Origin: Cloeon dipterum
Lineage: Eukaryota; Arthropoda; Insecta; Ephemeroptera; Baetidae
NCBI RefSeq assembly: GCF_949628265.1
Contig: NC_088786.1
Span: 6,138,001 to 6,202,000 of the forward strand
DNA: 64,000 bases
Direction: 5' to 3'
The notes beneath the pieces are model-generated. The model was not told the DNA's origin, searched no databases, and was given only the letters and a program-made list of their open reading frames with translations. Made by a program: the position numbers and the translations under genes. This document shows positions 17,886 through 44,457 of this stretch, in pieces; the first letter of the stretch is position 1, and each line of letters starts with the position of its first letter.

Positions 17886-17894
17886 CGTGGGAAA
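17886..17894 (+). promoter_or_regulatory. Su(H)/CSL-type site upstream of the Hey start
   Basis: CGTGGGAAA fits the Su(H)/CSL consensus YGTGRGAAM exactly. It lies 223 bases upstream of the Hey ATG, at the edge of the GC-rich 5' region. Hey genes are direct Notch targets in insects and vertebrates, so the placement is apt, although a single nine-base match can occur by chance. Confidence 0.5.
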
Positions 17895-18116
17895 GCAAAG
17901 CAAAAGTTGTCGGCGGCCGGCCGTCCAGGGGGGAGGCAGGGTTGCGTCTGTCCGGGCGCTGGCTGGCTGCGTGCAGGGCGGGGGTCGAGGGGTGGTGGTG
18001 GGCCCACCCTGCGTGTCGTGCACGCGGCAGAGCGGCGGCCGAGCGGCGTTCAGAGCACGTGCAGCGCCCGTCGCAGCAACACGTCCGCCGCAGCGCAGCC
18101 GAAAACCGAGAGAATC

Positions 18117-21100
18117 ATGAGGCGAATGGTCATCAGCTACGAGCAGGCGCCGCTCTACCACTACGCACAGCAGCCGCCGCCGCCCCCGCCGCCCCCGGCA
18201 GCCTACCTCCAGCCGTGGCAGCCGCAGCCGCCTCCGCCGCAGACGCACTCACAATCAGCACGCAGCGTCGACGACAGTGATGGCGATGACCTCTTTTCCG
18301 AGAACGACTCCAAGGAACAGTGAGTTTACTTCCCCGATTTTTTATATTTTTCATCAAAAGTCTTGTAATTTTAATATTTTTTTTTTGCAATCGAAGGGTT
18401 TCTTAAAATAATCAGAGTTTTTAAATTACATATATTTATTTTATAACAATCCAGATTTTTTATAAAAAATTTGCAGAATTGTTGAATATTAAATGTTAAC
18501 ATCGCTTTAAATTAGATTTCAAAAAATATTTTAACTTTCAAAATTCTGAGTTTTTTTATCGATTTATACGTCCTTTATTCTAGATTGAATTGTATTTTTT
18601 TCTAACTTTGCTAGAATCGAATAATAATTACGAGATTTTCAAATTTTAACCAGGACTAAAATTAAATGGAGGGTGGGAAAATTGTGATTTAAATGTATCT
18701 AAAATTTGATAAGAATGAAAATATTAAATCTTTTTTTTAGGAAAATTAATAATAAAAAGCAAAAATCTATAGTTTTTTTGGCGATTTATTCTGATAATCC
18801 GTTGTTATAATTATAAATTCAACTTTTTTCACATTTGCTGTTTGAATAAGGATTGAAAAATGCCATACTTCAAAAATTCAAAGCCAAAAACATTTTGTTC
18901 CATAAGAGTTGCAAACAATGCCCTCCAAAAACCCATAAAATAATAGTCATTTTGGCATAAGTTTTTTTCCTTTTAATTTGTATCTTCATTATTAAAAAAA
19001 GTTTCACTCTCATTTAAAGCTGAAATTTCACCTCTTATTTCCATTTTTAAATTTTTATAATAGTTCAAAGAAAAATAAAAAATATACTTGGTTGTAAAAA
19101 TACTGTGTTAAATAATCTTAATGCTGTCGAATTTTACGACTTCAATTGCACAAAGAAAATTAATTTAAAATTCAAATTTCTATTGAAACCAAAAATATCA
19201 TTTTCCTTAAATTTCAGTATCTATTTTACAAAGTTTATAATCATAAAACAAAATTTTGGTACTTGAATTGAAACATCAAGCGTTTAAAATGAAATCGTGT
19301 TATTACTCGCTACCTGCTGGTTTGCACCTTTCCAGCATGCGGTCGTGATTTGGCTTCACGGGACAAATGTCAAGCGTTTCAATGCAGTCCTCGGTGCGGA
19401 GGCAAGTGGCCCTTGAGTGGGCTGGGTTCCTGTGCGGCCTGGTGCGCCCATGTTATCCGTTCGCTGTGTTATTGGGACCCGGGTTGCAGCATTCGTGCTA
19501 GTGCATTCCCGGTCCTCGGACAAGGATAAAAAGAGCAAAAAATAATAATGTTGCATTTTAAATACATTAGTAAAAATCTAAAAATATCCAAATTTGTTTT
19601 AATTGCCATAAATAATACTTTGTGCTAACACTACTGCTCTTTAAATGTAAAACTGAAACATCTGAAAAACTAATTAAAAAGGGCAAATTTAATAGAGATT
19701 CATTTGTTCTATTTCATTTTCACATTGAGAACACGAAAAAGCTACTTATCCAAATTGGCATCCGATTTCGCGGTGCACGCGTGATAACTGACCTGCACTA
19801 ATCCTCCCTTTCCCACTACCCACCCTCACTCACTCACTCGCTCGCTCACAATCAGTCCCGTAACATCATAAAAGCCTCTCCCTCCCCCGCATCCAAGTCT
19901 CCCACGGTGCATTTACTGTTTGTTTATTTGCTCCTCTTTCTCACGGTCTGTGACTTTTGTTGCGCAGGTGTGTGTCACCGACCGAGGGCAGCAGCGGCTC
20001 CAGCTCGTGCGAGACGATGACCAGGAAGCGGCGCCGCGGCGTCATTGAGAAGCGGCGCCGCGACCGCATCAACAACTGTTTGTCCGAGTTGAGGCGCCTC
20101 GTCCCCTCTGCGTTCGAGAAACAGGGCTCCGCCAAGCTCGAAAAGGCCGAAATCCTTCAACTCACCGTCGAACACCTTAAAAATAAAGGTAAGATTTAAT
20201 AAATAGTTTGATTAGTCGTTATTAATTTGATTTTTTCTTTTAATTTTCAAGCAAGAATTTATTCAGTCACTGAATGTTGCTTCTAATTTTTCAAAGTTCT
20301 CCAAAATAAAAAAAAAATTAATTTTATACCTTTAATTTTTTGATCGAGACAGACTTTTTGAATTAATTCAATAATGAACTTCCATATATGAGCAAATTTG
20401 ATATTATTATTTGTTGACTGATTTTGGCTTTGATAAAAGTAAAAACCTCTACTTGTTCTAAACGGCGAAGCAATTTTTTTTTTGTAGATTTACAAATTAG
20501 ATTTATTTAATAACCGGTTTAGAAGCTCGGTAATAGTTATTTTTACGATTTTCTAAAGGATATAGTCCAAGATATCAAATTTATATGACATTATAAAAAA
20601 TTCAGTCTCAAATTCCCGACCAGCAAGACTCATTAAATTTCTTTCCTGGTCGAGCAAAAAAAAAAAAATATCTGGCCAAGTTCTGCGCGAGATTTCTTTT
20701 AAGAGCCCCTCTCGTGAAAGAACCGCTATGCAGAAAAAGGGTTGTTGGAGCTGCAGCTGTACGGCGGCAATTCTCCCACGGTGACCCTGCCTCGCTCTCT
20801 TCCACCCCTCTGACGCGGCTTTTCATTCATTCTCACAATATGATGATCCGCCCGATTAAAAGGCAATCACGCGCGAGCACACCTTTCCTGCTTACACCGC
20901 GTTTACAAATATTTTCATTCAAGAAATTGGAAATTTGCTGTGTAAAGAACCTGCTTTGTGGATTTTATAACAGGAAAAAAGGGGATGAAAACGTATCGTT
21001 TCATTCATTTTATATAGTGCAACCTGCAGCCCTTTTTATGCCAAGTGGATTTTTCTTTCTTAAACCTGTTAATTTTTTTAGCAGTAAAAAATGAAAAAAA

Positions 21101-22280
21101 CATCACGAAGAGTTTTCTATGCCATGACTTGTTAAATTATCTTGATCCGTTATTGCTTGAATATTCTTGGTTTTGCATAAAACTACACTAAAAAGGTTTT
21201 AAAATTAAATTTCTTGGATTCAAAGGATGAGCTAATTTGATTAAATGAGATGTAAAAAATTGTTATTTAAAAAAAATTATAAGAAAAATCGTATTAAAAA
21301 TTAATTGGTGTGGACAATAGTGTTAAAAGCTGACTTTATTTGCTAAAGAATCAAACGCCATTGATACAAATAAAATTCATTTGAACAATATTGTCATGTT
21401 ATCAAAAACTCTCATTTTTTCTAGATATACCAACTGTTTGTGAGTCTTTTTGTGAGTTTAATATCAAATGATTTATCATTTTTACTGACTTCTGTCTAGT
21501 TTGGCACAAAATATGACCACTTTTATTGTTCTGATTATAGAAAGAGAACGGAAAGACGGGTAAAATGTGTTTATTGAGTTTTTTGAATGCTTAAAAAAAT
21601 AATAAAGGTAGTGAAAATTTGATTTTTTTCGAAATGTCTGAATTTTTCCCGAGAGAAACGACTGGCTGTTATTTAAGAAAATTTAAGGTTTTAAAGCAGA
21701 ACAGTCAATTTTTTCCCATATTTAAGGTGTAAAATATTCAATTTAATAAACTTTTTTTTTTAATTCTTTAATTTCAAGATTTTTACATAATCCGTCGTAA
21801 AAAAACTTATTTATAATTTATTTTTAATTTTGTGTTTCAGGTGGCAGTGGAAATGTAGGCAGTGGCGTGGAGGAACGCGTCGCCATGGACTACGTGGGTC
21901 TCGGTTTCCGCGAGTGCGCGGCCGAGGTGGCCCGCTACCTGGTGAGCGTCGAGGGCATGCCCTTGGAGGACCCGATGCGGATGCGACTCATCTCGCACCT
22001 GCACAGCTTCGCCAAGAACCGCGAGATGCAAGTGAAGCAGGCAGCGACCGCGTGGCCCGGCGCCCCCTCCGCCTTCGCGCCCCCGGAGCCCCTGTACGCG
22101 CCGCCGGCGGGGCCGCCGCCCGAGTACTTCTACCAGCCGCCTCCGACCGGCCCCCAGCCGCTCCCGGTCGGCTCCACCGCCCCCGGAGGACCGTACCACC
22201 ACGCCCACAGCAGCCAGGGTCCTCCGCCGCCCTCGGCCAAACCCTACCGGCCCTGGGGCGCGGAACTCGGTGCTTACTAG
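18117..22280 (+). CDS. Hey: Hairy/E(spl)-related with YRPW motif (Hey) bHLH-Orange repressor
   Basis: Hey proteins are Notch-induced nuclear bHLH repressors. Three coding exons join in frame: 18117-18319, 19968-20188 and 21841-22280, giving 287 residues. The N-terminal region is rich in Pro and Gln, with a PPPPPPPP run. The bHLH (about 88-142) starts [17 protein letters not shown]. Glycine 92 replaces the proline found in Hairy and E(spl), which is diagnostic for Hey, and it is followed by [20 protein letters not shown]. The Orange domain (about 157-200) contains [20 protein letters not shown] proline-rich tail ends with YRPW at 277-280, then GAELGAY at the C terminus in place of the usual GTEIGAF. 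The start at 18117 follows a long GC-rich 5' region; a second ATG lies three codons later. Introns are large (1.65 kb each). The gene is convergent with the Bearded-like gene. Confidence 0.96.
19310..19530. other. GC-rich island in Hey intron 1
   Basis: A sharply GC-richer block of about 220 bases stands out from the AT-rich intron. No protein, tRNA or known repeat is recognisable in it. It could be an intronic enhancer or a fragment of a mobile element. Confidence 0.3.
19810..19944 (-). promoter_or_regulatory. Cluster of three Su(H)-type cores in Hey intron 1
   Basis: Three cores matching RTGRGAR lie on the minus strand at 19810-19816 (GTGGGAA), 19899-19905 (GTGGGAG) and 19938-19944 (GTGAGAA, extending to the full consensus CGTGAGAAA at 19937-19945). 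They sit in the pyrimidine-rich stretch before exon 2, which raises the chance of random matches. Confidence 0.35.
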
Positions 22281-22670
22281 ACTTTACGGAATCATTTTTA
22301 GATTTTTTAAATTAATGAAAGGCACGTACGGATTTGTTTAAGACAAAAATTGAGAGTATCGTAACAACTGTAGATTATAATGATAAGGATTTGATTTTTT
22401 TAATAACTCCTTTGCGCAAAAGTCAGACGATAGACAAATTGATTTATTTAAAAATTCCGCTAAGAAAAAATCACCTGTTTTTTATACACGCTATTTTCCT
22501 TATCATAAATCTACAGCTAGTTGTTACCACAGTATATTCAGGGAGGGGTTTTTCGATTATGAAAAAAAATCAGGATAAATCCGGAGTTTGATTTCCTGTC
22601 TTGAATGAAACCACAACATTTAAAAAGAATTAGTTTGCCGTGCCTCACTATTTAATTGACGAGCCAGGTT

Positions 22671-22676
22671 AATAAA
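22671..22676 (+). terminator. Hey polyadenylation signal AATAAA
   Basis: AATAAA 391 bases after the Hey stop codon, the first good hexamer found downstream. It would give a 3' UTR of about 0.4 kb. Confidence 0.5.
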
Positions 22677-24160
22677 AGTTGCCTTTATTGAGTGCTTTTG
22701 ATCACAAAGTGCCTCAACCTGTACAAAAATACCGCCAAAACCGTTTCAATTTCAACCAACAGAGCCAGTCAAATTGAAAAATGACGTTTTTGGCATGCAC
22801 AAAACCTTTTGTTCAGTACTTTATAAAATTGCTTTGACGGGCGTTCCTTGTGTTTCTAGTCATGTTCTTTTTTGAGAATGCGCGTTCATAGTCTGATAAT
22901 ATGCTTATTGCGTTCTCGACAAAAAGTAACACGAAAATATTGTGCGTGATTTAAGCACGTAAGTGATTTTATTGATCGATTGTGCGTGTATCGCATCTGC
23001 ACTTTCAAATTTGTAAATAACAATTTATGGTTAAAAATATTTTTATAACAATGTATTAATTGGTATAAGTCTGTTCCTAAATAAAAAATGAAACTAAACA
23101 ACAGAACACCGTTGGTTTTAATTTTTAAAACAATGCCACACATATTTAGACAGCGCTAAAATAAAGAAATTTGCCATAAAACGTTTTTCGATAAAGCAAA
23201 TGTACAATTTTTTAAATAAACCATTTTTAATGCTCGCTCTAGGAGAAGAACACAAACTTTGCAGCCATTTTCTTTTTAGGGGTAGAAAAAAGTATGAATT
23301 TTTCGTTTTCCATCTGCTTCATCTACAGTTTGTGAACAATAATAATCTCCGAGGATTTGCGGGCTTCTCATCTCCCGCTGAGCCGAAAGCAGATAATGCA
23401 GAAAAACATGTTCCAAATCCCATTGTTGCAAAAACCGGAACAAAATTAACGGACTTTTGCGCATACCGCGCAGAGAAAACTGGTTTTGCAGCAAAAACTT
23501 CGACACTTTTCAGCAGGATTTAACAAAATGGGAGGAGAGAGGGCTATAGTGAGGAAAGAATAGTTGCCAATTAAACTCAAATCGTGCCATTTGGTCGGTA
23601 TGCAATAAGATCAAACGCGAAATCAATCAAATGCTGCGTGACAATCGGTCCACAGACCACATACAGAGAGAGATTTGTAAAATATCATTCTCCTTCCGAT
23701 GGAGTGTGTAATGACGCGGCACTATCGCAAATTTAATCAAAATCAGACGTTGTCAACTTGTCAGCCGATCAATCAATCTCTAAAATGGAAAGAAATAAGT
23801 TTCTCACTTCTGATTCAATAAATCCCTGGCGATTTCAACGCAAGGGTGTATAGCTTTTTAAATTTTCACCAAGCTCCAATGGGCACAAAACTAATCAATT
23901 TCACAAAATATTAAAGTTTTGTATTAAAAGATTCTTAATAATTCAACGGATTTAATAAAATGTACGCATAGAATGAAATTTCACTCGCGTGACACATGTC
24001 TCCCTGAAAAGAGTACTTTAGAAATATGAAAAATGTTAGAACCAAATTTAACCTAGAATCTCAAAATTTTATGCTTGGTTAAAAACTTATTTATTTCCTT
24101 AAAACAATATAAAAAGAAAATTAAACATAAAAAATTCCACAGAAATTAATCCGGCATTCA
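22677..24160. other. Intergenic, Hey to Bearded-like gene
   Basis: AT-rich DNA with short scattered open frames and no supported gene. A Su(H) core TTCTCAC lies at 23811-23817. Confidence 0.4.
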
Positions 24161-24273
24161 CATCATCGCATTGTGTCTCTTTGTAACAGGTCAATTAGCC
24201 CCGATCGGGGGTGGGATCCGCTTTGGCGCGGGGGTGCAAACCCTTGGCGATTATAGCGATTTGATCTCGGCGG

Positions 24274-24304
24274 GTGAGAGTTTAGCTCGGAACGCTTTCC
24301 CACG
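24274..24304. promoter_or_regulatory. Head-to-head paired Su(H) site (SPS-like)
   Basis: GTGAGAG at 24274-24280 faces TTCCCAC at 24297-24303, separated by 16 bases. The second half extends to the exact consensus CGTGGGAAA on the minus strand (24296-24304). Paired Su(H) sites in this orientation with a 15-17 base gap are the known Notch dimer architecture of E(spl) genes. The first half ends in G instead of A. The pair lies in a GC-rich island (about 24,160-24,420) between Hey and the Bearded-like gene, about 230 bases beyond the latter's poly(A) signal. Confidence 0.55.
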
Positions 24305-24531
24305 GCGTTCGTGATCGTGCAACCCTTGCCGTTTAATATGCGAGAGCTCGCAACCAGCCACCCCTCCGTGTCGTGTTTGCTTCGCGGCAACACACTTCAC
24401 CCCTGAAAGCACCTTTTGTAATGCGGCCGTGGGACTTTTTCATCTCCGGCTTTTTATGCTCGCGAGCTTTTGTATGAGGGTAATTAAATCAAAAGACCAG
24501 TCAGTTTAAGTGTTAGAATAATTAGCAATTT

Positions 24532-24537
24532 TTTATT
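24532..24537 (-). terminator. Polyadenylation signal of the Bearded-like gene
   Basis: AATAAA on the minus strand, about 120 bases after the stop codon at 24657. It gives a short 3' UTR. Confidence 0.55.
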
Positions 24538-24617
24538 TGTATATATAAATATTATATAGGTTAGCACAAGACTTAAATTTAAATGATTAGAAAAGATTGA
24601 AATGTCCGAGAAATCGA

Positions 24618-24623
24618 ATCACA
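24618..24623 (-). promoter_or_regulatory. K box (TGTGAT) in the 3' UTR of the Bearded-like gene
   Basis: CTGTGATT on the minus strand, 34 bases after the stop, contains the K-box core TGTGAT. In Drosophila E(spl) and Bearded-family transcripts this box is a target of the miR-2/miR-13 class. I see no Brd box or GY box in this UTR. Confidence 0.45.
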
Positions 24624-24656
24624 GCCTTTTTTTGGATAATTATAATTTTTTTACAA

Positions 24657-25000
24657 TTAAATGAATGTTGCCATTTTCATCTCGATTCTCTCATTGAGCA
24701 CATTGTCATCGTGCTCGAGCCAGGAGACGAGGGTGGCACAGCTGGCGGCCGCGGAGGAGGTCACGGGGCCTCGGTGGCCGCCTCGCAGCATCAATTCGGT
24801 CCAAATGGCCTCCTCGATCGGATCAGCACTCTTCACGCGAAGACGGCGTTTCAAAATCTGCAGAAAAATCAATTTACAATTAAATAACAAATCTCATTAA
24901 TATTAATTTAAATTAAAATTAAACAAAAGAAAATGATTTTTCTCACCATGATCCACTTTCTGATTGTAGACACGCAGACAGTGTTGAAATTCGAGTCCAT
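24657..25000 (-). CDS. Small Bearded-family-like protein (putative Neuralized inhibitor), 84 aa
   Basis: Two exons, 25000-24947 and 24857-24657, are joined by an 89-base intron (donor GTGAGA, acceptor CTGCAG). They encode 84 residues starting MDSNFNTVCV. The unspliced frame stops within the intron. Residues 11-27 (STIRKWIMILKRRLRVK) form a basic amphipathic helix, and residues 69-76 are DNVLNERI. Bearded-family proteins combine such a helix with an NxxNE(K/R)L motif that binds the E3 ligase Neuralized and so blocks Delta endocytosis. The match is to these two motifs only; the rest is not recognisable. Support for a real gene comes from an exact Initiator/DPE promoter, a poly(A) signal and a K box. 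Drosophila Bearded genes lack introns, so the intron is unusual. It could instead be an unrelated short protein. Confidence 0.62.
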
Positions 25001-25023
25001 ATTGCGTTGGAGAGTGTTTGAAC

Positions 25024-25058
25024 ACGTCTGTTTCGTCTGGCGGCTTGGAGAGAACTGA
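25024..25058 (-). promoter_or_regulatory. Initiator plus DPE core promoter
   Basis: TCAGTT on the minus strand (25058-25053) fits the arthropod Initiator TCAKTY, with A+1 at 25056. AGACGT at 25029-25024 occupies +28 to +33, the exact position required of a downstream promoter element (RGWYV). There is no TATA box. It predicts a 56-base 5' UTR for the Bearded-like gene. Confidence 0.7.
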
Positions 25059-25156
25059 ATGCACGACCGCCGAAGTGGAGGATCACCCCTGGACGGCGCA
25101 ATAAGGGAGGGGCGCGCGTTTTATCACGTGGGGAGGTTTGATATCACTGCCAGAGG

Positions 25157-25163
25157 CTCCCAC
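25157..25163 (-). promoter_or_regulatory. Su(H)-type core upstream of the Bearded-like promoter
   Basis: GTGGGAG on the minus strand fits RTGRGAR and lies about 100 bases upstream of the predicted start site. Confidence 0.35.
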
Positions 25164-25259
25164 GCTCGCTTTCCCGATGATATATATTTTATGACACACT
25201 TGAATCAATTTGTGCTCGTTTCGCACGCCACCGGAGAGGAATGAAATTATAATTAATGC

Positions 25260-28200
25260 AGAGAGGGAAAATGTTGCTTAAGATGATTCTTTATCGAATA
25301 TGGGGATAAATATAATTAGAAGAATTGAGATTTTGAATAAATTAAGCTTTGAAATGATAAATTTGAAACTTTTTTATACTTTATTTAATAAATAGTCCAG
25401 CTATTAAAATTTGATACATTTAGTTTGTCTGAAAAGGATCCAAAGACTATTAATATTATAGAGCTAGGATTTTTCCTTGTTTTCGAGTAACTTGTACCCA
25501 AATTTAAAAAAAAAATAGAATGTGTTTTGCACCCCAAAAATCGAGGTGTTTTGCAAATTCCCCGATTGCACGCAGTTTTCGATCAGATTTCTATAGTATC
25601 AATGTTTTTGTGCTTATGACTAATTTCAAGTTTATAAAAGAGGATTGAATACAACCCCTCTCATGATTGAGTTATCGTCGCAAATTCTAAATTGCTGAAT
25701 TAGGCCGTTCTTTTAATGTCAATTCTAATGTTTTTGACACCACAAAACAGAATAAGATTGCTTAAAATATTTTTCGCATGTAAACGGACCCAAACTATTT
25801 CATGTTTTCTAAATTTAGCAGATATGAATTGTTTTATTGCTCTATTTTATTTAAATAATTTCATTATTCTTAATTTAAAATAAATTTTTGTTAATTGAAA
25901 TTATGAAAATAAAAATTTTGTTTCACTTTTAAATAATTTTTATTATAATTATTTAATGTGGTTTCAAAAATTAAAACATTATTATTGAATCATTCACGCA
26001 CTTTTAAGAAATCATAACAATATTTGTAATCATTTTTTTAGTTTTTATTTTTATTAAGGATCGTTTTAGCATTGCAAAATCTCTAAAATAAATATTAAAT
26101 AAAAAAATTAGGATTGAAGAAATACCAAATTAAAAGCAACATATTTAAAGTCGATTTAGGAAGTGTTTGTGGGAAACAGGTGTCGCGCGTCCGCAGAGAG
26201 AATAAATATAGGACGAGAGGACTTTATGTGTTTGCTGATGGGCGCGTGCGGGTCGCGTGGGAACGCGTGTCCGCGCGCGGTCGCACCCGCCCCCACCCCC
26301 CGCCGTTTGCAAATCCATCTGCTGCACCTATTAACACAGCGCGCTCGTCCTCTCCATCCCGGGATGAGAAGCCACTTTTGCGGTCAAATCGGCGCTTCAA
26401 TAGAAAAATAATTCAGTTTTTTGGAAAGCGAAATGCTCGTAAAATTTTATGAGGCGTGAGCGAGTTTCGATTTAAAATGCAAACGCCACACATCTGCACT
26501 GCTTTCCCATCGCCATCGCATAAAACATTGTTAAAAAAAAAATCTTTGTAAGTGAGTGATGATTGGGGCGAGTCCATTTATTAATTTCTGCGTTTCTGAT
26601 TTGACGAGCGTGACCGCTTTTCATCACGTTTCAAATGAAATTGTTGAAACGGCAACTTTTTTGTGAGTGACAGCTGTCGTAGTTAATTTAACAGCGATTG
26701 TGCATTATTAACCGAATCAAATTGCATTTTAAAAACTTCTAGCTGCACATCATAATATATTGTCGAGCTTGTCGGGCCAGTTGCATAAGCTCGCCAGTTT
26801 GCAGGCGCACTCATTTTTTAAATCGTAAAATTAAGAGGAAACTGTTCGAGTCGCTTGTAATTAGAATTGCATTATTTCAATGTTCGCGTTGCATAGTGAT
26901 TAAAATCTATTATTTATCATTTTATGAGATATATAATCTAAATTACAGTGGAGCTCACTTATATTTTTTAATTAGAGCAAAGAATTACGACAAATCAAGG
27001 ACGATGACTTTGTTTACATTTTTCTATAAAAAGAGCACACAATAAACATTTTTAAATATTGACTGACCAATATTCAAATGATTAGAGAAATGTTTTCATG
27101 TGATTTTATGAGTAAAAATTATGATTTTATAAGTAAAAATCATAAAATATTTTTAAAACACAAATATAGCAATATAAAAAATATATTATATTTTAAATAC
27201 ACTATTTAAATTAAAAATACTAATTGACACTACTTGTATCAACAATAAAAATATTAGTTTTGGTTGCAATGCTATTAGTAAAAATCGTTCAAGAAAAATA
27301 AAACAGTATTTTCTTGGACTGATAAGCAGCTGTTTCCACCCCGCAGGCCTCACCAGCAATACTTAATCTCCGAAACAAAATTCAAATACGCAGTATTAGT
27401 ATCAGCTGCAATTTCCGAGTAAGTATATAGGCCAAAGGACGGGAGTTTAACTAAATAACTGTGCAGATATGAGTGCTATTAGAAAGAAAAATTCTTGGGA
27501 TTTTTGAAATTTTTAATTTTATGCTTCGGAAATAATTGTACCTCTCCCAATTTTCCCTGAGAGCCGTTGTGAAAATTTACTTATAACTATCAGCAAGTTA
27601 TTCAACCCACAAAAATGGAAAAATAAAATTCTGCTTCTAGACGTTAAATTTCTGCACGCGATTTTCTGTTTGAAGTACAATTCTTAACATAAAAATAATT
27701 TTTGGCCTTATTTAACAAGAGATTATTAATAACTATTAATTATTTTTTTGGTGAAAGAAGTTCTTGGTAACTTTAAAAGGATTAAATATATACATATAAT
27801 GGACTGTTGTGTTTGGTCAGCGTTGCGAGCGCTAAAACAAGCCAAGAGTGTTATTTCATTTGGACTTTTGGACCCACTCGTAAATGCAAATCGGACGAGG
27901 ATGATTTTATTATTGCAATGCCATCTGCGAGGCGCAGAATCATTTTTTCTGACAGGTGGCCCCGCTCGCGCGCATTTGCATCAGATCGGTTTTATGAGAC
28001 CGCGCGCGCGATGCGCTTCATTTGGCACCCCTTTCCCCGATCATAATATTACTCCCTTCTGGCGTGATTCAAATTGGCGGGTGAAAAATCGAGGTTCGCC
28101 CGCAAAAAGCTGTCTGACACGGGATAAATAATCGGATGATTGTTAAAAAGAGCTGCCTGTGTGCGTCTCGCGGGAGCAAAATATTTACTCAAATAAGAGC

Positions 28201-28437
28201 AACCCTTTTTAACCGAATAATAAAACACAGATGGCAAAAAGAATACACCAGGAAATAAAGGGTGGCTTCCAAATTTGCTTCTGAGAACGAATGTTTATTA
28301 ATTGCAGAAAAAATTGTATCAATTTACATTTTACCAACAGTTATTAATGTTTCATTTTTCAGCGGGATCAATTTGTTTAATTTTAGTCTGAAAATTTAAC
28401 GATTAAAATTACAAATTTGTAAATCTAAATGTATTTC
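25260..28437. other. Upstream region of the Bearded-like gene with GC islands
   Basis: No exon is supported. Two GC-rich islands stand out. At about 26,180-26,370 is a perfect Su(H) consensus CGTGGGAAC (26256-26264), followed after 16 bases by GTCGCAC (26280-26286), one mismatch from an inverted second half site. At about 27,930-28,090 are CAGGTG (E-box) and ATTTGCAT (octamer-like). The rest is AT-rich and featureless. Confidence 0.4.
28433..28437. repeat. Target-site duplication, left copy (ATTTC)
   Basis: ATTTC directly precedes the left LTR and is repeated directly after the right LTR at 34469-34473. Confidence 0.85.
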
Positions 28438-29589
28438 TGTGGTAACCTTTCTCTCTGTAACACCACGAAAAATATTATGCCTGGCTGTTTCCTGTAACTT
28501 ACGGTCCACGCAGAGCCGGGAGGGCTGTCCAACATGCCGAGCAAACCTGCGCCTCCGCCGCCGCCGCCGCCGCGCCGATACTTCTCTATTTAACACTCAA
28601 TCTGCTGCTGGACCAAGCCATTCTCAAAAGCCTCTCCTCAATATTACTAATTCTGCCTCGCTTATTATTATATTATTATATTTGCTCTCTTTAATTATGC
28701 TTCTAACAATAAACTCACTCTCCTTAAACTGTGATCCACTGAACTATATTATTCAACTAGGCTGATTAATAATGCCAACAATCGGTCATAATTATTACCA
28801 ACTCGGCTGCTCATGCACGGCAGCGAGTTGGAATAATTATGAGACTTTAGAAATATTAATTGCCTCACTGCTTGTGAGCAGTCCGAAATCCTTAGAATAA
28901 AATATCTGCGTCTTGCTGGCCTGGCAAGAGCGCGCGACTAAATATTCTCAGCGACTTCTAATCGCAAATAAATAGTCCAGTTTCTCCAAAAATTAGCAAA
29001 AACTATGAAACTTGCAAACTGATTGATAACTTAATCTCCTTTATATTAATTACGTTATTATCTTTGGATTCTCTGTATTTTATCAAATGGAAAAGTAGAA
29101 ATTATACACCGCCAGTTAACTCCTGTCTAACAATAATTTATGATGTGGTTTTATTGGAACGTAAGTGACTCTAACAATTATAAAAAGGCTTTCAATCGCG
29201 ATATTGGCCATATTTACCGTTACGTTAACTATTAAAACGCAGACGAGACTTTGACAAAATGCTTACTTATTACTGTGGCTGGCTGGCGCGTACGCTAGGT
29301 GTTGCTCGGCAGAGGTCGGAAAACCCTCTCAGAGGAAGCCCAAATGCAGCCTCTCCGATAACTCGGGGGAGGGTGCATTTGGCTGCCAGTTTACGCGTCA
29401 GCCAGTGGTTGGTTCAGACAAATCGTGCGCTGAGGGCGCGAAAATCACGTTAAAGTTAAACAGCGCTCGTCTTACGCTTCCAAAATAAAGTGCCAATTCA
29501 TACACATAATACGGTGGTTGGTTACGGTGCTCTGGGCGCCTTGTCATGGCGCCCCTAAGGTCCGTAGCAGGCCAGAACGTTGTACAACA
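28438..29589 (-). repeat. LTR (left copy, 3' LTR in element orientation)
   Basis: A 1,152-base direct repeat with a short CCG-triplet run near its left end (about 28,550-28,575). On the plus strand it also has TATAAAAAGG (about 29,178) and AATAAA (about 29,484), which would suit the opposite orientation. Confidence 0.85.
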
Positions 29590-31080: not shown

Positions 31081-33296
31081 CAAACAATCATGATTTCTCG
31101 CAAAATTAACTCGTTCCGTTTCCAAGTATCGAAATTTTCGCAAAATTTCCGCGTTACGTTCAATGCAAAATCAATTAAGTTTCCAATTCATTTCTCGAAA
31201 TTTATCATGAAACTTTCGCGTTACATTCGTATATTCGCAATCAAATCAGTTTCCGCTTACATCAACAGTCATCCTTCATTTAATAACGCATTTCGCAAAA
31301 GGGGGAGTTCCCTAACTACTATTGTGGCAATAAAACATTTTAATCGGTTCAAATGGGCCCCTATCTTTTAATTTTCTTCGCTCTTCTTAGTTGTGCGTGC
31401 TGATTTTCGGCCTTCTGCTTCTTCAGGGGATGGTTCGATTCTCTTGCTGTTTCGACTCTCTCGCTTTTGTCTATTTGCCGCGTCGCTGTGGGGTTTCCGC
31501 GGCGGCGCGGAGTTGGCGTTTCTTCTGCGCAGGGAGCAGGACCCGGATCGTCCTGCTCCCGGGCTGATTCAACGTCGGGGGCGATCGTTTCTCCTTTGCT
31601 GCTCGTTCCGAAGGGCGCCGCGGCCCTGGTGGTCGCTGGTTCATCTCTCAGTGGCACATGTTGTTCGCTTTGTAGGCTGTTTGCTATTTTACTATTGTTT
31701 GATCTTTCTCCGAAAGTTTTCTTCTGTGATACCAGCGTGGTGGTGGCTCCGCTTTGCTTATGTCTCGTTGTATATAAGGGGTCTATATTTTTTTGTTCCG
31801 TGAAAAATACATGTCGAGGGGTTTCAGCTTGGGGGGTGGCGAAGCGTAGTTAATTCGAGTATAGAAAAACTCACTCCTGGGTGGTTAGGCACTCCTCAAT
31901 ATTTTAAGGCCCAACCAAAAGTGTCGTCCATAAATGAACGACGCGCCCTCGTGACTTCCGCTATGTAGTCTGTGTGCATCGAGGGTTTGTTGGTCAGTTC
32001 ATAACCCCGCAAAGGCATAGAAACTGATTCAACAGCAAGCTGAAAACTCTTGGCCGTGTATATTTGCTTTTAATACAGTCTTTGCTTCGCTCTTCGTGCT
32101 TGTATAATTTGTATGTTGTAAGTTGCCGAGGAGTAAAGGCTCGATTTTTAGGTTATTGTTTGAAAATAAAGCAAGTCCTTGAGGAATGGGCAAGCAGCGT
32201 CGGGTGCCCGTGACAATGACTTCCGCCACTTCCAAGAAATGGGTGAAATCAGCTGCTTTCCCGCGTTATTTTAGGCAGAAAAATTCTTAAAGCATTAATG
32301 CGGGGACAATAGCAATAAGTGTAGCCCTATAGAGGCTATGTTGACAAAGGGTCGGCACCCAGGCAGGCAGAACAATACATGCGCTTGATAATAGATCTTC
32401 CGCCCGGCAAAAGGCGGTGGTAAGGGTCGCGCTCAGTATCTCCCACGGCTGTGTGCCAGATGTGTGCTCGGTTTAAAAGTTTCTCTTCTTGAGTGGCGAG
32501 TTTCATGTGAATTTTAAAAAAAATAAAAAAAAATCGGAATCACCTCCGCGCTTGTTAAATATGTATTTCGCCAGCTATCTGGCTAGGCTTCCAAAATTTA
32601 AGTCCATATTATTCGCTCTCGATTACTATTATTTGTGCTTAGCGCAATGTTTACATTTAATCTGTTACTAAGGGACTCAGCAGATAAAATAAATCGTCTT
32701 CTCGCGCGCGTTACGTCGTCTTCTTCATCTTCTATCTTCTTAAATGTTCAAACTTGCATCTTAAAATCTCGGTCATCTTCTTCAAAGGGGGCGTCATGCA
32801 GGATAAAAATTTCTGCCCGAGTCGTTAAATATTTCTCTCCAGAAGGTCGCGAATTTAATTTTCTTTCGTCAGGGTCGCAAAATTTCGTCTTAATCAGCTC
32901 GCAAATGTTTTTCTTGTCCGTTCGCAATTTTTTTCTCGTACGATGGCAAATTTTTCTCGTCAGGGAACCCTCCAAAATGCCACAATAGTTCAACTTTAAG
33001 CTTGACTCAAAATTCACAAATAAATAACGTGCAAAAATCAATTAAATATTCCAAAATGTCCAAATTTCCGACAATTTCAATTATTCTTCTCAATTTTTTT
33101 TAAGTTCACCAACATTTCTCGATTACCGTTGAATGCCATGCAAATTATGAGCCAAACTTACTACCTAAAAGGGTACTACTTATCGTTATAACAGCTCTGC
33201 GTCGGTGAAGTTCTGCTGCTCCAGCGTCCCAAAGCAGCAGCCTACAGGAAACAGAGTACGCGGCCGGTCCATTGGACAAATAGGAATTTGTCCAAG

Positions 33297-33311
33297 CCAC
33301 TTCTGACACCA
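33297..33311 (-). other. Primer binding site, tRNA-Leu type
   Basis: TGGTGTCAGAAGTGG on the minus strand is complementary to the CCA-bearing 3' end typical of eukaryotic tRNA-Leu. It lies five bases inside the right LTR. Confidence 0.75.
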
Positions 33312-33316
33312 AAATC

Positions 33317-34468
33317 TGTGGTAACCTTTCTCTCTGTAACACCACGAAAAATATTATGCCTGGCTGTTTCCTGTAACTTACGGTCCACGCAGAGCCGGGA
33401 GGGCTGTCCAACATGCCGAGCAAACCTGCGCCTCCGCCGCCGCCGCCGCCGCGCCGATACTTCTCTATTTAACACTCAATCTGCTGCTGGACCAAGCCAT
33501 TCTCAAAAGCCTCTCCTCAATATTACTAATTCTGCCTCGCTTATTATTATATTATTATATTTGCTCTCTTTAATTATGCTTCTAACAATAAACTCACTCT
33601 CCTTAAACTGTGATCCACTGAACTATATTATTCAACTAGGCTGATTAATAATGCCAACAATCGGTCATAATTATTACCAACTCGGCTGCTCATGCACGGC
33701 AGCGAGTTGGAATAATTATGAGACTTTAGAAATATTAATTGCCTCACTGCTTGTGAGCAGTCCGAAATCCTTAGAATAAAATATCTGCGTCTTGCTGGCC
33801 TGGCAAGAGCGCGCGACTAAATATTCTCAGCGACTTCTAATCGCAAATAAATAGTCCAGTTTCTCCAAAAATTAGCAAAAACTATGAAACTTGCAAACTG
33901 ATTGATAACTTAATCTCCTTTATATTAATTACGTTATTATCTTTGGATTCTCTGTATTTTATCAAATGGAAAAGTAGAAATTATACACCGCCAGTTAACT
34001 CCTGTCTAACAATAATTTATGATGTGGTTTTATTGGAACGTAAGTGACTCTAACAATTATAAAAAGGCTTTCAATCGCGATATTGGCCATATTTACCGTT
34101 ACGTTAACTATTAAAACGCAGACGAGACTTTGACAAAATGCTTACTTATTACTGTGGCTGGCTGGCGCGTACGCTAGGTGTTGCTCGGCAGAGGTCGGAA
34201 AACCCTCTCAGAGGAAGCCCAAATGCAGCCTCTCCGATAACTCGGGGGAGGGTGCATTTGGCTGCCAGTTTACGCGTCAGCCAGTGGTTGGTTCAGACAA
34301 ATCGTGCGCTGAGGGCGCGAAAATCACGTTAAAGTTAAACAGCGCTCGTCTTACGCTTCCAAAATAAAGTGCCAATTCATACACATAATACGGTGGTTGG
34401 TTACGGTGCTCTGGGCGCCTTGTCATGGCGCCCCTAAGGTCCGTAGCAGGCCAGAACGTTGTACAACA
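33317..34468 (-). repeat. LTR (right copy, 5' LTR in element orientation)
   Basis: Matches 28438-29589 throughout by eye. It is followed at 34469-34473 by the second ATTTC target-site copy. Confidence 0.85.
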
Positions 34469-40090: not shown

Positions 40091-43000
40091 TCATAATGTG
40101 GTGGTCGTAGTTGGGGTAGTAGTAGTAGTAGTAGTGTCAGTGGTCGTGGTAGTTGTCGGCGTGGTCGTGGTAGTGGTTGGGGTAGTTGTAGTAGTTTCGG
40201 TGGTCGTGGTAGTTGTCGGCGTGGTCGTGGTAGTGGTTGGGGTAGTTGTAGTAGTTTCGGTGGTCGTGGTAGTTGTCGGCGTGGTCGTGGTAGTGGTTGG
40301 GGTAGTTGTAGTAGTTTCGGTGGTCGTGGTAGTTGTCGGCGTGGTCGTGGTAGTGGTTGGGGTAGTTGTAGTAGTTTCGGTGGTCGTGGTAGTTGTCGGC
40401 GTGGTCGTGGTAGTGGTTGGGGTAGTTGTAGTAGTTTCGGTGGTCGTGGTAGTTGGGGTAGTAGTAGTAGTGTCAGTGGTCGTGGTAGTTGTCGGTGTGG
40501 TCGTGGTAGTGGTTGGGGTAGTTGTAGTAGTTTCGGTGGTCGTGGTAGTTGTCGGCGTGGTCGTGGTAGTGGTTGGGGTAGTTGTAGTAGTTTCGGTGGT
40601 CGTGGTAGTTGTCGGCGTGGTCGTGGTAGTGGTTGGGGTAGTTGTAGTAGTTTCAGTGGTCGTGGTAGTTGGGGTAGTAGTAGTAGTGTCAGTGGTCGTG
40701 GTAGTTGTCGGCGTGGTCGTGGTAGTGGTTGGGGTAGTTGTAGTAGTTTCGGTGGTCGTGGTAGTTGTCGGCGTGGTCGTGGTAGTGGTTGGGGTAGTTG
40801 TAGTAGTTTCGGTGGTCGTGGTAGTTGGGGTAGTAGTAGTAGTGTCAGTGGTCGTGGTAGTTGTCGGTGTGGTCGTGGTAGTGGTTGGGGTAGTTGTAGT
40901 AGTTTCGGTGGTCGTGGTAGTTGTCGGCGTGGTCGTGGTAGTGGTTGGGGTAGTTGTAGTAGTTTCGGTGGTCGTGGTAGTTGTCGGCGTGGTCGTGGTA
41001 GTGGTTGGGGTAGTTGTAGTAGTTTCAGTGGTCGTGGTAGTTGGGGTAGTAGTAGTAGTGTCAGTGGTCGTGGTAGTTGTCGGCGTGGTCGTGGTAGTGG
41101 TTGGGGTAGTTGTAGTAGTTTCGGTGGTCGTGGTAGTTGTCGGCGTGGTCGTGGTAGTGGTTGGGGTAGTTGTAGTAGTTTCAGTAGTCGTGGTAGTCGG
41201 GGTAGTAGTAGTAGTGTCAGTGGTCGTGGTAGTTGTCGGCGTGGTCGTGGTAGTGGTTGGGGTAGTAGTAGTAGTTTCAGTGGTCGTGGTAGTTGTCGGC
41301 GTGGTCGTGGTAGTTGTTGGGGTAGTTGTAGTTGTTTCGGTGGTCGTGGTAGTTGGGATAGTTGTAGTAGTTTCAGTGGTCGTGGTAGTGGGGGTAGTTG
41401 TAGTAGTTTCAGTGGTCGTGGTAGTTGTCGGCGTGGTCGTGGTAGTGGTTGGGGTAGTTGTAGTAGTTTCGGTGATCGTGGTAGTTGTCGGCGTGGTCGT
41501 GGTAGTGGTTGGGGTAGTTGTAGTAGTTTCGGTGGTCGTGGTAGTTGGGGTAGTTGTAGTAGTTTCGGTGGTCGTGGTAGTTGGGATAGTTGTAGTAGTT
41601 TCAGTGGTCGTGGTAGTGGGGGCAGTTGTAGTAGTTTCGATGGTCGTGGTAGTTAGCGACGTGGTCGTGGTGGTGGTTGGGGTAGTTGTAGTAGTTTCAG
41701 TGGTCGTGGTAGTTGTCGGCGTGGTCGTGGTGCTAGTTGGGGTAGTTGTGGTAGTTGTCGGTGTGGTTGTCGTTGGGGTAGTTGTAGTAGTTTCAGTGGT
41801 CGTGGTAGTTGTCGGCGTGGTCGTGGTAGTGGTTGGGGTAGTTGTAGTAGTTTCAGTGGTCGTGGTAGTTGTCGGCGTGGTCGTGGTGGTAGTTGGGGTA
41901 GTTGTAGTACTTTCGGTGGTCGTGGTAGTTGTCGGCGTGGTCGTGGTAGTGGTTGGGGTAGTTGTAGTTGATTCGGTGGTCGTGGTAGTTGTCGGCGTGG
42001 TCGTAGTTGTCGTTGGGGTAGTTGTAGTAGTTTCAGTGGTCGTGGTAGTTGTCGGCGTGGTCGTGGTGGTAGTTGGGGTAGTTGTAGTAGTTTCGGTGGT
42101 CGTGGTAGTTGGGGTAGTTGTAGTAGTTTCAGTGGTCGTGGTAGTTGGGGTAGTTGTAGTAGTTTCAGTGGTCGTGGTAGTTGTCGGCGTGGTCGTGGTA
42201 GTGGTTGGGGTAGTTGTAGTAGTTTCGGTGGTCGTGGTAGTTGTCGGCGTGGTCGTGGTGGTGGTTGGGGCAGTTGTAGTACTTTCGGTGGTCGTGGTAG
42301 TTGTCGGCGTCGTCGTAGTGGTGGTTGGTGTTGTGGTACTTGTGGTTGGTGTGGAAGTTGTTGTAGTAGGCGTGGTCGTAGTGGTGGTTGGTGTGATAGT
42401 TGTTGTAGTAGGCGTCGTCGTGGTAGTTGTCGGCGTCGTCGTAGTGGTGGTTAGAGTAGTTGTAGTAGTTTCAGTGGTCGTGGTAATTGTCGGCGTCGTC
42501 GTAGTAGTGGTTGGTGTTGTGGTAGTTGTTGTAGGCGTGGTCGTGGTAGTGGTTGGGGTAGTTGTAGTAGTTTCAGTGGACGTGGTAGTTGCCGGCGTCG
42601 TCGTAGTCATGGTTGGTGTTGTGGTAGTTATTGTAGTAGGCGTCGTCGTGGTAGTTGTCGGCGTCGTCGTAGTGGTGGTTAGAGTAGTTGTAGTAGTTTC
42701 AGTGGTCGTGGTAATTGTCGGTGTCGTCGTAGTAGTGGTTGGTGTTGTGGTAGTTATTGTAGTAGGCGTCGTCGTGGTAGTTGTCGGCGTCGTCGTAGTG
42801 GTGGTTAGAGTAGTTGTAGTAGTTTCAGTGGTCGTGGTAATTGTCGGCGTCGTCGTAGTAGTGGTTGGTGTTGTGGTAGTTGTAGTAGGCGTCGTCGTAG
42901 TGGTGGTTGGGGTAGTTGTAGTAGTTTCAGTGGACGTGGTAGTTGCCGGCGTCGTCGTAGTCATGGTTGGTGTTGTGGTAGTTATTGTAGTAGGCGTCGT

Positions 43001-44409
43001 CGTGGTAGTTGTCGGCGTCGTCGTAGTGGTGGTTAGAGTAGTTGTAGTAGTTTCAGTGGTCGTGGTAATTGTCGGCGTCGTCGTAGTAGTGGTTGGTGTT
43101 GTGGTAGTTGTAGTAGGCGTCGTCGTAGTGGTGGTTGGGGTAGTTGTAGTAGTTTCAGTGGACGTGGTAGTTGCCGGCGTCGTCGTAGTCATGGTTGGTG
43201 TTGTGGTAGTTATTGTAGTAGGCGTCGTCGTGGTAGTTGTCGGCGTCGTCGTAGTGGTGGTAGGGGTAGTTGTAGTAGTTTCAGTGGTCGTGGTAGGCGT
43301 GGTCGTGGTTGTTGTTGGCGTCGTCGTAGTGGTGGTTAGGGTAGTTGTAGTAGTTTCAGTGGACGTGGTAATTGTCGGCGTCGTCGTAGTAGTTGTTGGT
43401 GTTGTGGTAGTAGTTTCAGTGGTCGTGGTAGTTGGGGTGGTTGTGGTAGTGTCAGTGGACGTGGTAGTTGGGGTGGTTGTGGAAGTGTCAGTGGACGTGG
43501 TAGTTGGGGTGGTTGTGGTAGTGTCAGTGGACATGGTAGTTGGCGGCGTGGTCGTAGTGGTGGTTGGGGTAGTTGTAGTAGTTTCAGTGGTCGTGGTTGT
43601 TTGGGTGGTTGTGGATGTGTCAGTGGTTGTGGTTGTGTCAGTGGTCGTGGTAGTGTCAGTGCTTGTGGTAGTATCAGTGGTCGTGGTAGGTTCAGTGGTC
43701 GTAGTAGGTTCAGTGGTCGTAGTAGGTTCAGTGGTTGGGGTAGTTGTAGTTGATTTTGTTGTAGATGTTTTACTGGTGGTTGTCGTTGTTGGTTTTTTAG
43801 TGGTTGTGGTTGTGGGTTTTTTAGTGGTTGTTGTGGTTGGTTTCTTGGTTGTTGTCGTGGTTGGTTTTTTGGTTGTTGTTGGTTTCTTGGTTGTTGTCGT
43901 GGTTGGTTTTTTGGTTGTTGTTGGTTTCTTGGTTGTTGTCGTGGTTGGTTTTTTGGTTGTTGTTGGTTTCTTGGTTGTTGTCGTGGTTGGTTTTTTGGTT
44001 GTTGTCGTGGTCGGTTTCTTTGTTGTAGTTGGTTTTTTGGTTGTTGTCGTAGTCGGTTTCTTTGTTGTAGTTGGTTTTTTGGTTGTTGTTGTAGTCGGTT
44101 TCTTTGTTGTAGTTGGTTTTTTGGTTGTTGTCGTAGTCGGTTTCTTTGTTGTTGTTGGTTTTTTTGTTGTTGTCGTGGTTGGCTTCTTTGTTGTTGTTGG
44201 TTTTTTGGTTGTTGTCGTGGTCGGCTTCTTTGTGGTTGTTACGGCATTCGGCTTTGGCACGGGACCAGTTGTTGTCTTATCAACTGGAACACTCGCTGTG
44301 AGCACCAGCTTTGACAAAGTATTTTGTTTAAAAAAGTGAATTTTTAACATAGGAAACAACTTACCTCGTACGCTGCTAGTAAAAATAGCAATGTCCATAA
44401 CTTCCCCAT
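40091..44409 (-). CDS. Secreted threonine-rich mucin-like protein, 1,420 aa
   Basis: Two exons, 44409-44365 and 44308-40091, join in phase 0 (donor GTAAGT, acceptor CAAAG). Exon 1 supplies MGKLWTLLFLLAAYE, and exon 2 continues LVLTASVPVDKTTT, together forming a classic signal peptide. The mature protein begins with KKPTTTTT repeats (about 43,790-44,240), then runs to the stop as Thr/Pro units of 20 residues (TTTTPTTTTTTPTTTTTTET) mixed with 12-residue units. There are no cysteines, chitin-binding domains or membrane anchor. Such sequences are heavily O-glycosylated, as in insect mucins, salivary glue and silk-like secretions; which one applies cannot be told. The frame stays open over 4.2 kb of minisatellite, which argues for selection. 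A TATA box and poly(A) signal fit. It sits between fragments of an inverted nrf-6-like copy. Confidence 0.85.
40101..43780. repeat. Coding minisatellite with 60- and 36-base units
   Basis: Five 60-base units stand in exact register at 40141-40440. Each later block is one or more 60-base units followed by a 36-base unit ending GTAGTAGTAGTGTCAG, giving a higher-order pattern. All unit lengths are multiples of three. Copies from about 42,300 on are more diverged. Confidence 0.9.
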
Positions 44410-44450
44410 GTTGAGAGAACGTATGATATGGAATTGAGTTTTCAAGCCGT

Positions 44451-44457
44451 ATTTATA
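44451..44457 (-). promoter_or_regulatory. TATA box of the mucin-like gene
   Basis: TATAAAT on the minus strand, about 42 bases before the ATG, predicting a very short 5' UTR. Confidence 0.6.

Follow-up and report, generated by a model that had tools for sequence, protein, structure and literature searches.

The E(spl) complex of insects and crustaceans, comprising bHLH-2, her, m-alpha and bHLH-1, joins basic helix-loop-helix (bHLH)-Orange repressors to a Bearded-class gene, and in its ancestral four-gene form two bHLH genes lie opposite to m-alpha and one in the same orientation (PMC4575448; this and the other papers are cited from excerpts). Bearded genes show little sequence conservation (PMC4575448), a basic amphipathic N-terminal helix being one of their traits (PMC1310631, PMC4575448), and members of the class may sit outside the E(spl) complex, with little similarity or hard to find (PMC4575448, PMC5644144). 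Bearded proteins share with Delta and Serrate the Neuralized-binding core NxxN (PMC12678834). Work on lineages of the Drosophila central nervous system relies on the bHLH-Orange gene Hey as a Notch target readout (PMC10741450). Here, we analysed a 64,000-nucleotide stretch of the Cloeon dipterum genome (the window; C1:6138001-6202000 of 190.1 Mb in 10 contigs), in which Hey lies tail to tail with a small predicted gene amid a cluster of consensus Su(H) sites. We give roughly even chances to the reading that this small gene is a second, dispersed member of the Bearded class and that the locus it forms with Hey is probably Notch-responsive; its membership of the Bearded family, taken by itself, we consider slightly the likelier outcome.

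Hey and its small convergent neighbour

An earlier reading of the window from its letters alone (the sequence-only reading) placed Hey beside a convergent small gene 2.4 kb away, and the gene models bear this out: 2377 bp separate the end of the Hey stop codon from the stop of the small gene.

18117-18319, + strand: Hey coding exon 1 (spliced translation; donor GTGAGT)
19968-20188, + strand: Hey coding exon 2, bHLH including the basic region (Pfam, spliced translation)
21841-22280, + strand: Hey coding exon 3, Orange domain and C-terminal YRPW (Pfam, spliced translation)
24947-25000, - strand: predicted exon 1 of the small Bearded-like gene (MDSNFNTVCVSTIRKWIM), ending in ATG before the donor GTGAGA
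24858-24946, - strand: predicted 89-nt intron of the small gene, phase 0, inside the basic amphipathic helix
24657-24857, - strand: exon 2 of the small Bearded-like gene with NVLNERIE (coding score), TAA stop at 24657-24659
24521-24659, - strand: presumed 3' untranslated region of the small gene, K box TGTGAT at base 37 and AATAAA at base 123, counted from the stop codon

Modelled on the genomic sequence, Hey has three exons with GT-AG introns and encodes 287 amino acids (aa) with YRPW near the C-terminus. The protein of exons 2 and 3 matches the Pfam families HLH (1.7e-15) and Hairy_orange (5.8e-15). Hey proteins are marked by a glycine in the basic region, and the predicted protein has it together with the bHLH, the Orange domain and the C-terminal YRPW. 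A search with its 57-aa bHLH region found no Hey relative in viral_contigs or genome_contigs.

The small gene is predicted to have two exons encoding 84 aa, with an open frame and good splice sites. Its sense frame has a codon score of 0.187 against a shuffle mean of -0.12, a value reached by none of 2000 shuffles, under a model trained on 1563 codons from ten pieces of the window and the E(spl) complex that were assumed to be coding, each in its fewest-stop frame. The spliced open reading frame (ORF) outscores all 204 non-coding stretches, and the other five frames score below the sense frame. On the opposite strand, the ORF at 24661-24897 has a lower codon score than the sense frame of the small gene and was for this reason not accepted as a gene. 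The strongest helical moment of the small protein (0.73, computed from sequence) lies at TIRKWIMILKR, residues 12-22, with a net charge of +4, giving a small protein with a predicted basic amphipathic N-terminal helix. Further along, NVLNERIE resembles the Neuralized-binding motif in having NxxN and the E; in 20,000 shuffles of the small protein, N..NE occurs in 0.98% and N..NE.[LIMVF]E in 0.04%. The 559 bases searched for 3' boxes hold one K box and no GY or Brd box; the K box is weak evidence because the motif has only six bases.

Elsewhere in the same genome, three of the eight Hairy_orange matches lie within 45 kb on contig C3, two on the - strand and one on the + strand. A bHLH stretch is recognisable by eye in all three ORFs; WRPW closes two of them, and for the third a piece ending in WRPW follows a short way downstream. 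Between these genes, on the + strand, is a predicted ORF in two exons that encodes 80 aa, including a basic helix and NAANEALE, and is accompanied by one GY box and two K boxes; a Pfam scan of its unspliced ORF gave no ESM4 and only weak DUF3637 (0.074) and UIM (0.1) matches. In its genes and their orientations this group fits the ancestral four-gene arrangement, and the E(spl) complex appears intact here. The small gene and this Bearded candidate share a plan: 84 and 80 aa, a first exon of 18 and 17 codons, a phase-0 intron directly after it, and the motif. In both predicted models the intron falls inside the helix and is followed by ILK in the small gene and FLK in the candidate.

Su(H) sites at Hey and at the E(spl) complex

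The sequence-only reading had noticed four exact matches to the Su(H) consensus YGTGRGAAM in about 8.4 kb. The cluster stands and the count rises to five, the site at 26168 having been missed.

17886-17894, + strand: exact Su(H) site CGTGGGAAA, 231 bp 5' of the Hey ATG
19937-19945, - strand: exact Su(H) site in a pyrimidine-rich stretch before Hey exon 2, possibly incidental
24273-24304, unstranded: cryptic inverted pair of GGTGAGAG (6/8), a 16-bp gap and TTCCCACG (8/8), the last being the exact site at 24296 (- strand)
25121, 25127, 25157 and 25220 (span 25121-25227), unstranded: four weak 7/8 Su(H)-like sites 5' of the small gene
26168-26182, + strand: exact Su(H) site TGTGGGAAA, overlapping by one base a proneural-type E-box ACAGGTG (26176)
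26256-26264, + strand: exact Su(H) site CGTGGGAAC, a consensus match

Among the positions listed earlier, 17886 and 26256 are exact, and the ends given as 19944 and 24304 belong to the exact sites at 19937 and 24296. The remaining three fall away: 25157 is only a 7/8 match to YGTGRGAA, 24274 lies within the 6/8 half of the cryptic pair, and the minus-strand sequence near 19810 is AGTGGGAAA, whose first base fails the consensus.

For the whole window, five exact sites compare with 3.94 expected, and 32 of 100 shuffles reach five; the total is therefore ordinary and not enriched. All five fall within the 8.4 kb (17886-26264) around Hey and the small gene. Shuffling this interval within 1-kb blocks, which keeps local base composition, gave a mean of 0.456 sites, and none of 500 shuffles reached five, while the rest of the window holds no exact site against 3.21 expected (100 shuffles), so the density at the locus is indeed above that of shuffled sequence. 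Because the interval was picked by its own matches, a fairer figure comes from the maximum over all 8.4-kb spans, which is five and is equalled in 2 of 300 whole-window shuffles. Under the looser consensus YGTGDGAA, 6 sites fall in the interval against 1.12 (0 of 500 shuffles) and 7 in the rest of the window against 8.74.

Genomic background was taken from 44 other loci that had come from gene and motif searches, hence not at random, with loci in the window or the E(spl) complex left out. Their 130,058 unique bases hold 11 exact sites, or 0.71 per 8.4 kb; adding 32.9 kb of flanks of the E(spl) complex gives 13 sites in 162,958 bases, or 0.67 per 8.4 kb. Loci of about 3 kb carry at most two sites each, and two loci reach two. 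The cluster at Hey is thus about seven times the genomic background, slightly less striking than the shuffles imply.

Weaker matches are common in the window, where 152 sites of 7/8 amount to 0.71 per 300 bp. The 25121 and 25127 sites overlap at one CACGTG. The sites at 25127 and 25157 form a head-to-head 7/8 + 7/8 pair with a 22-bp gap, another such pair lies at 19780, and the window has three of them.

At the E(spl) complex, the 47-kb stretch on C3 holds 23 exact sites against 2.34 expected (0 of 100 shuffles). All four genes have a perfect inverted pair upstream, its halves separated by 12 bp at two genes and by 17 bp at the other two, and a proneural box RCAGSTG 10-50 bp from the pair. In flies the canonical gap measures 17 bp (PMC3261227); in mouse Notch assays it is 16 bp (PMC7685452). 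The two pairs with 12-bp gaps, at C3:30342392-30342419 and C3:30350949-30350976 (L011 and L012), differ from gaps of 16-17 bp by about half a helical turn. Given these pairs and proneural boxes, Cloeon dipterum seems to use the standard paired Su(H) code at its E(spl) complex, and the Hey locus does not display this code.

The Bearded reading and its alternatives

Because consensus Su(H) sites cluster at the locus, Notch probably activates at least one of its two genes, Hey and the small gene. The Bearded reading is built from genomic gene models, coding bias, the motif, the helix, intron placement and site clustering. If the small gene is transcribed as predicted, its protein would bind membrane by way of the basic amphipathic helix, and NVLNERIE would occupy the site at which the E3 ligase Neuralized binds its substrates. 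Neuralized occupied in this way would leave less Neuralized-dependent Delta activity in the producing cell. Under common control of both genes, a Notch-ON cell would make the repressor Hey and at the same time damp its own Delta. More tentatively, Hey and the small gene may represent a second pairing of a bHLH-Orange gene with a Bearded-class gene besides the E(spl) complex, run by unpaired Su(H) sites and perhaps old; it may have escaped notice, since the divergence of Bearded genes is too rapid for BLAST.

Several results weigh against the Bearded reading. The fuller Neuralized-binding motif of Bearded proteins is NxANE, and NVLNERIE has a leucine in place of this alanine. The expression N..NE.[LIMVF]E was fitted once the protein had been seen. 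Matches to an NxANExLE-like motif number 26 in the genome against 12 for the reversed control, 13 of the 26 belonging to one repeat with reverse-transcriptase-like ORFs on the opposite strand (six matches read); with this repeat set aside, the motif is about as frequent as its control. An NxLNExIE-like motif has 15 matches against 6 for its reversed control. Reading the loci of 20 of the 26 and of all 15 matches revealed no further clear Bearded gene. Two short ORFs, one of 87 codons with NTANESLE (L037, C2:3599530) and one of 47 codons with NAANEKLE (L031, C1:13055655), may be further Bearded-like candidates or due to chance. The small protein has no Pfam match; ESM4 searched against the genome gave none either and is uninformative, as its controls likewise gave none. 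Similarity to known Bearded members was judged by one comparison, with the candidate in this genome's E(spl) complex, itself recognised by motif and place and not by homology. The local score of 25 is reached by 25.7% of 2000 shuffles and is not significant, and 21.5% of shuffles reach the global score. MAFFT identity is 18%, with the two motifs left unaligned to each other; anchoring the alignment on the intron puts the TI[KR] residues four positions out of register, and in genome searches with E up to 10 neither candidate retrieves the other. Against viral_contigs the small protein gave one match of 15 residues at 67% identity (L029), judged chance, and against the PDB a best E of 0.76, judged noise. 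The non-significant similarity, the missing family match and the motif strings outside Bearded-like genes favour the explanation that the small gene is real and unrelated to Bearded, with helix, motif and intron agreeing by chance and the Su(H) sites serving only Hey, a known Notch target. We regard this as possible, at distinctly less than even chances: size, basic helix, motif, and the phase and place of the intron jointly agree with the E(spl) complex candidate, and a K box is present. The Bearded-like traits that the sequence-only reading saw in the small gene are present; the family assignment depends on architecture and motif and has no significant similarity behind it, so that it is plausible, not proven. 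It would lapse altogether if the small ORF were no gene, a suspicion fed by its mere 84 aa, its prediction from genomic sequence and a codon model trained on pieces assumed to be coding; codon bias and splice signals make this very improbable.

The regulatory side has its own points against it. The sequence-only reading attributed to this locus the regulatory logic of the E(spl) complex, but the hallmark perfect inverted Su(H) pair, present at four of four genes there, is missing at Hey, where the best pairs are the 6/8 + 8/8 one at 24273 and the two 7/8 + 7/8 ones at 19780 and 25127; for the pair at 24273, the chance that one or more of the five exact sites would have so good a partner is about 0.14. 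The SPS+A module, a perfect inverted pair near a proneural box, is likewise found at all four genes of the E(spl) complex and not at the Hey locus. As its sites are scattered singles, we rejected the locus as a second E(spl)-type module. Moreover, Hey is expressed without Notch input in mushroom-body lineages (PMC10741450). The genes could also be as described and the site cluster have no regulatory meaning, which is compatible with the other explanations. One of the sites falls in the pyrimidine-rich tract ahead of an exon, and the others are isolated singles, some of them in GC-rich stretches; the whole-window count is ordinary, and the background of the 44 loci is not negligible. Set against this are the mean of 0.46 in local shuffles that keep composition and a background of 0.71, or 0.67 with the E(spl) complex flanks, per 8.4 kb at non-random loci compared with five here, and we think a meaningless cluster unlikely.

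Other features and known systems

Among ORFs of at least 95 codons read by eye, no clear gene stands between the small gene and an ORF at 35.5-36.4 kb that looks ankyrin-like. A repeat consisting of two like-oriented copies of one ORF stretch (VVTFLSVTPRKILCLAVSCNLRS...), about 5 kb from each other, lies at 28400-28765 and 33192-33641. A minus-strand ORF of 1453 codons at 40094-44452 has TTTKKPTT-type repeats and looks mucin-like by eye. Elsewhere in the genome, 19 Neuralized-domain matches were counted exon by exon, 13 of them in a row at C4:20816939-20822316; five of these 13 contain a TAG, and the row may be a multi-NHR gene with introns. The insect-specific odorant-receptor family 7tm_6 (PF02949) has 5 matches in the genome, as fits an insect.

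Among the hits listed in searches of open-licence PubMed Central, we recognised none that describes Hey and a Bearded gene as neighbours. If the Bearded reading is true, it would suggest that Notch effectors came to be paired with Neuralized inhibitors, or stayed so, on more than one occasion, and that Bearded genes could be searched for by the place of the helix intron, the motif and a Su(H) cluster in place of similarity.

To our knowledge, Drosophila Bearded genes have no introns, and the small gene differs from them in its predicted intron, in being single and in lying beside Hey. It resembles Bearded, Tom and Ocho of Drosophila in being a candidate Bearded-class gene that lies outside the E(spl) complex (PMC3261227). 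As in the described Notch target (PMC10741450), Hey has Su(H) consensus sites here, and the Bearded-like neighbour is the difference. The closest parallel is the E(spl) complex, in which, as at this locus, a bHLH-Orange repressor adjoins a Bearded-class gene with Su(H) sites around (PMC4575448). The Hey locus departs from it in having Hey as the bHLH gene, two genes in all, and single Su(H) sites in place of perfect inverted pairs, in a genome that also carries an apparent four-gene complex elsewhere.

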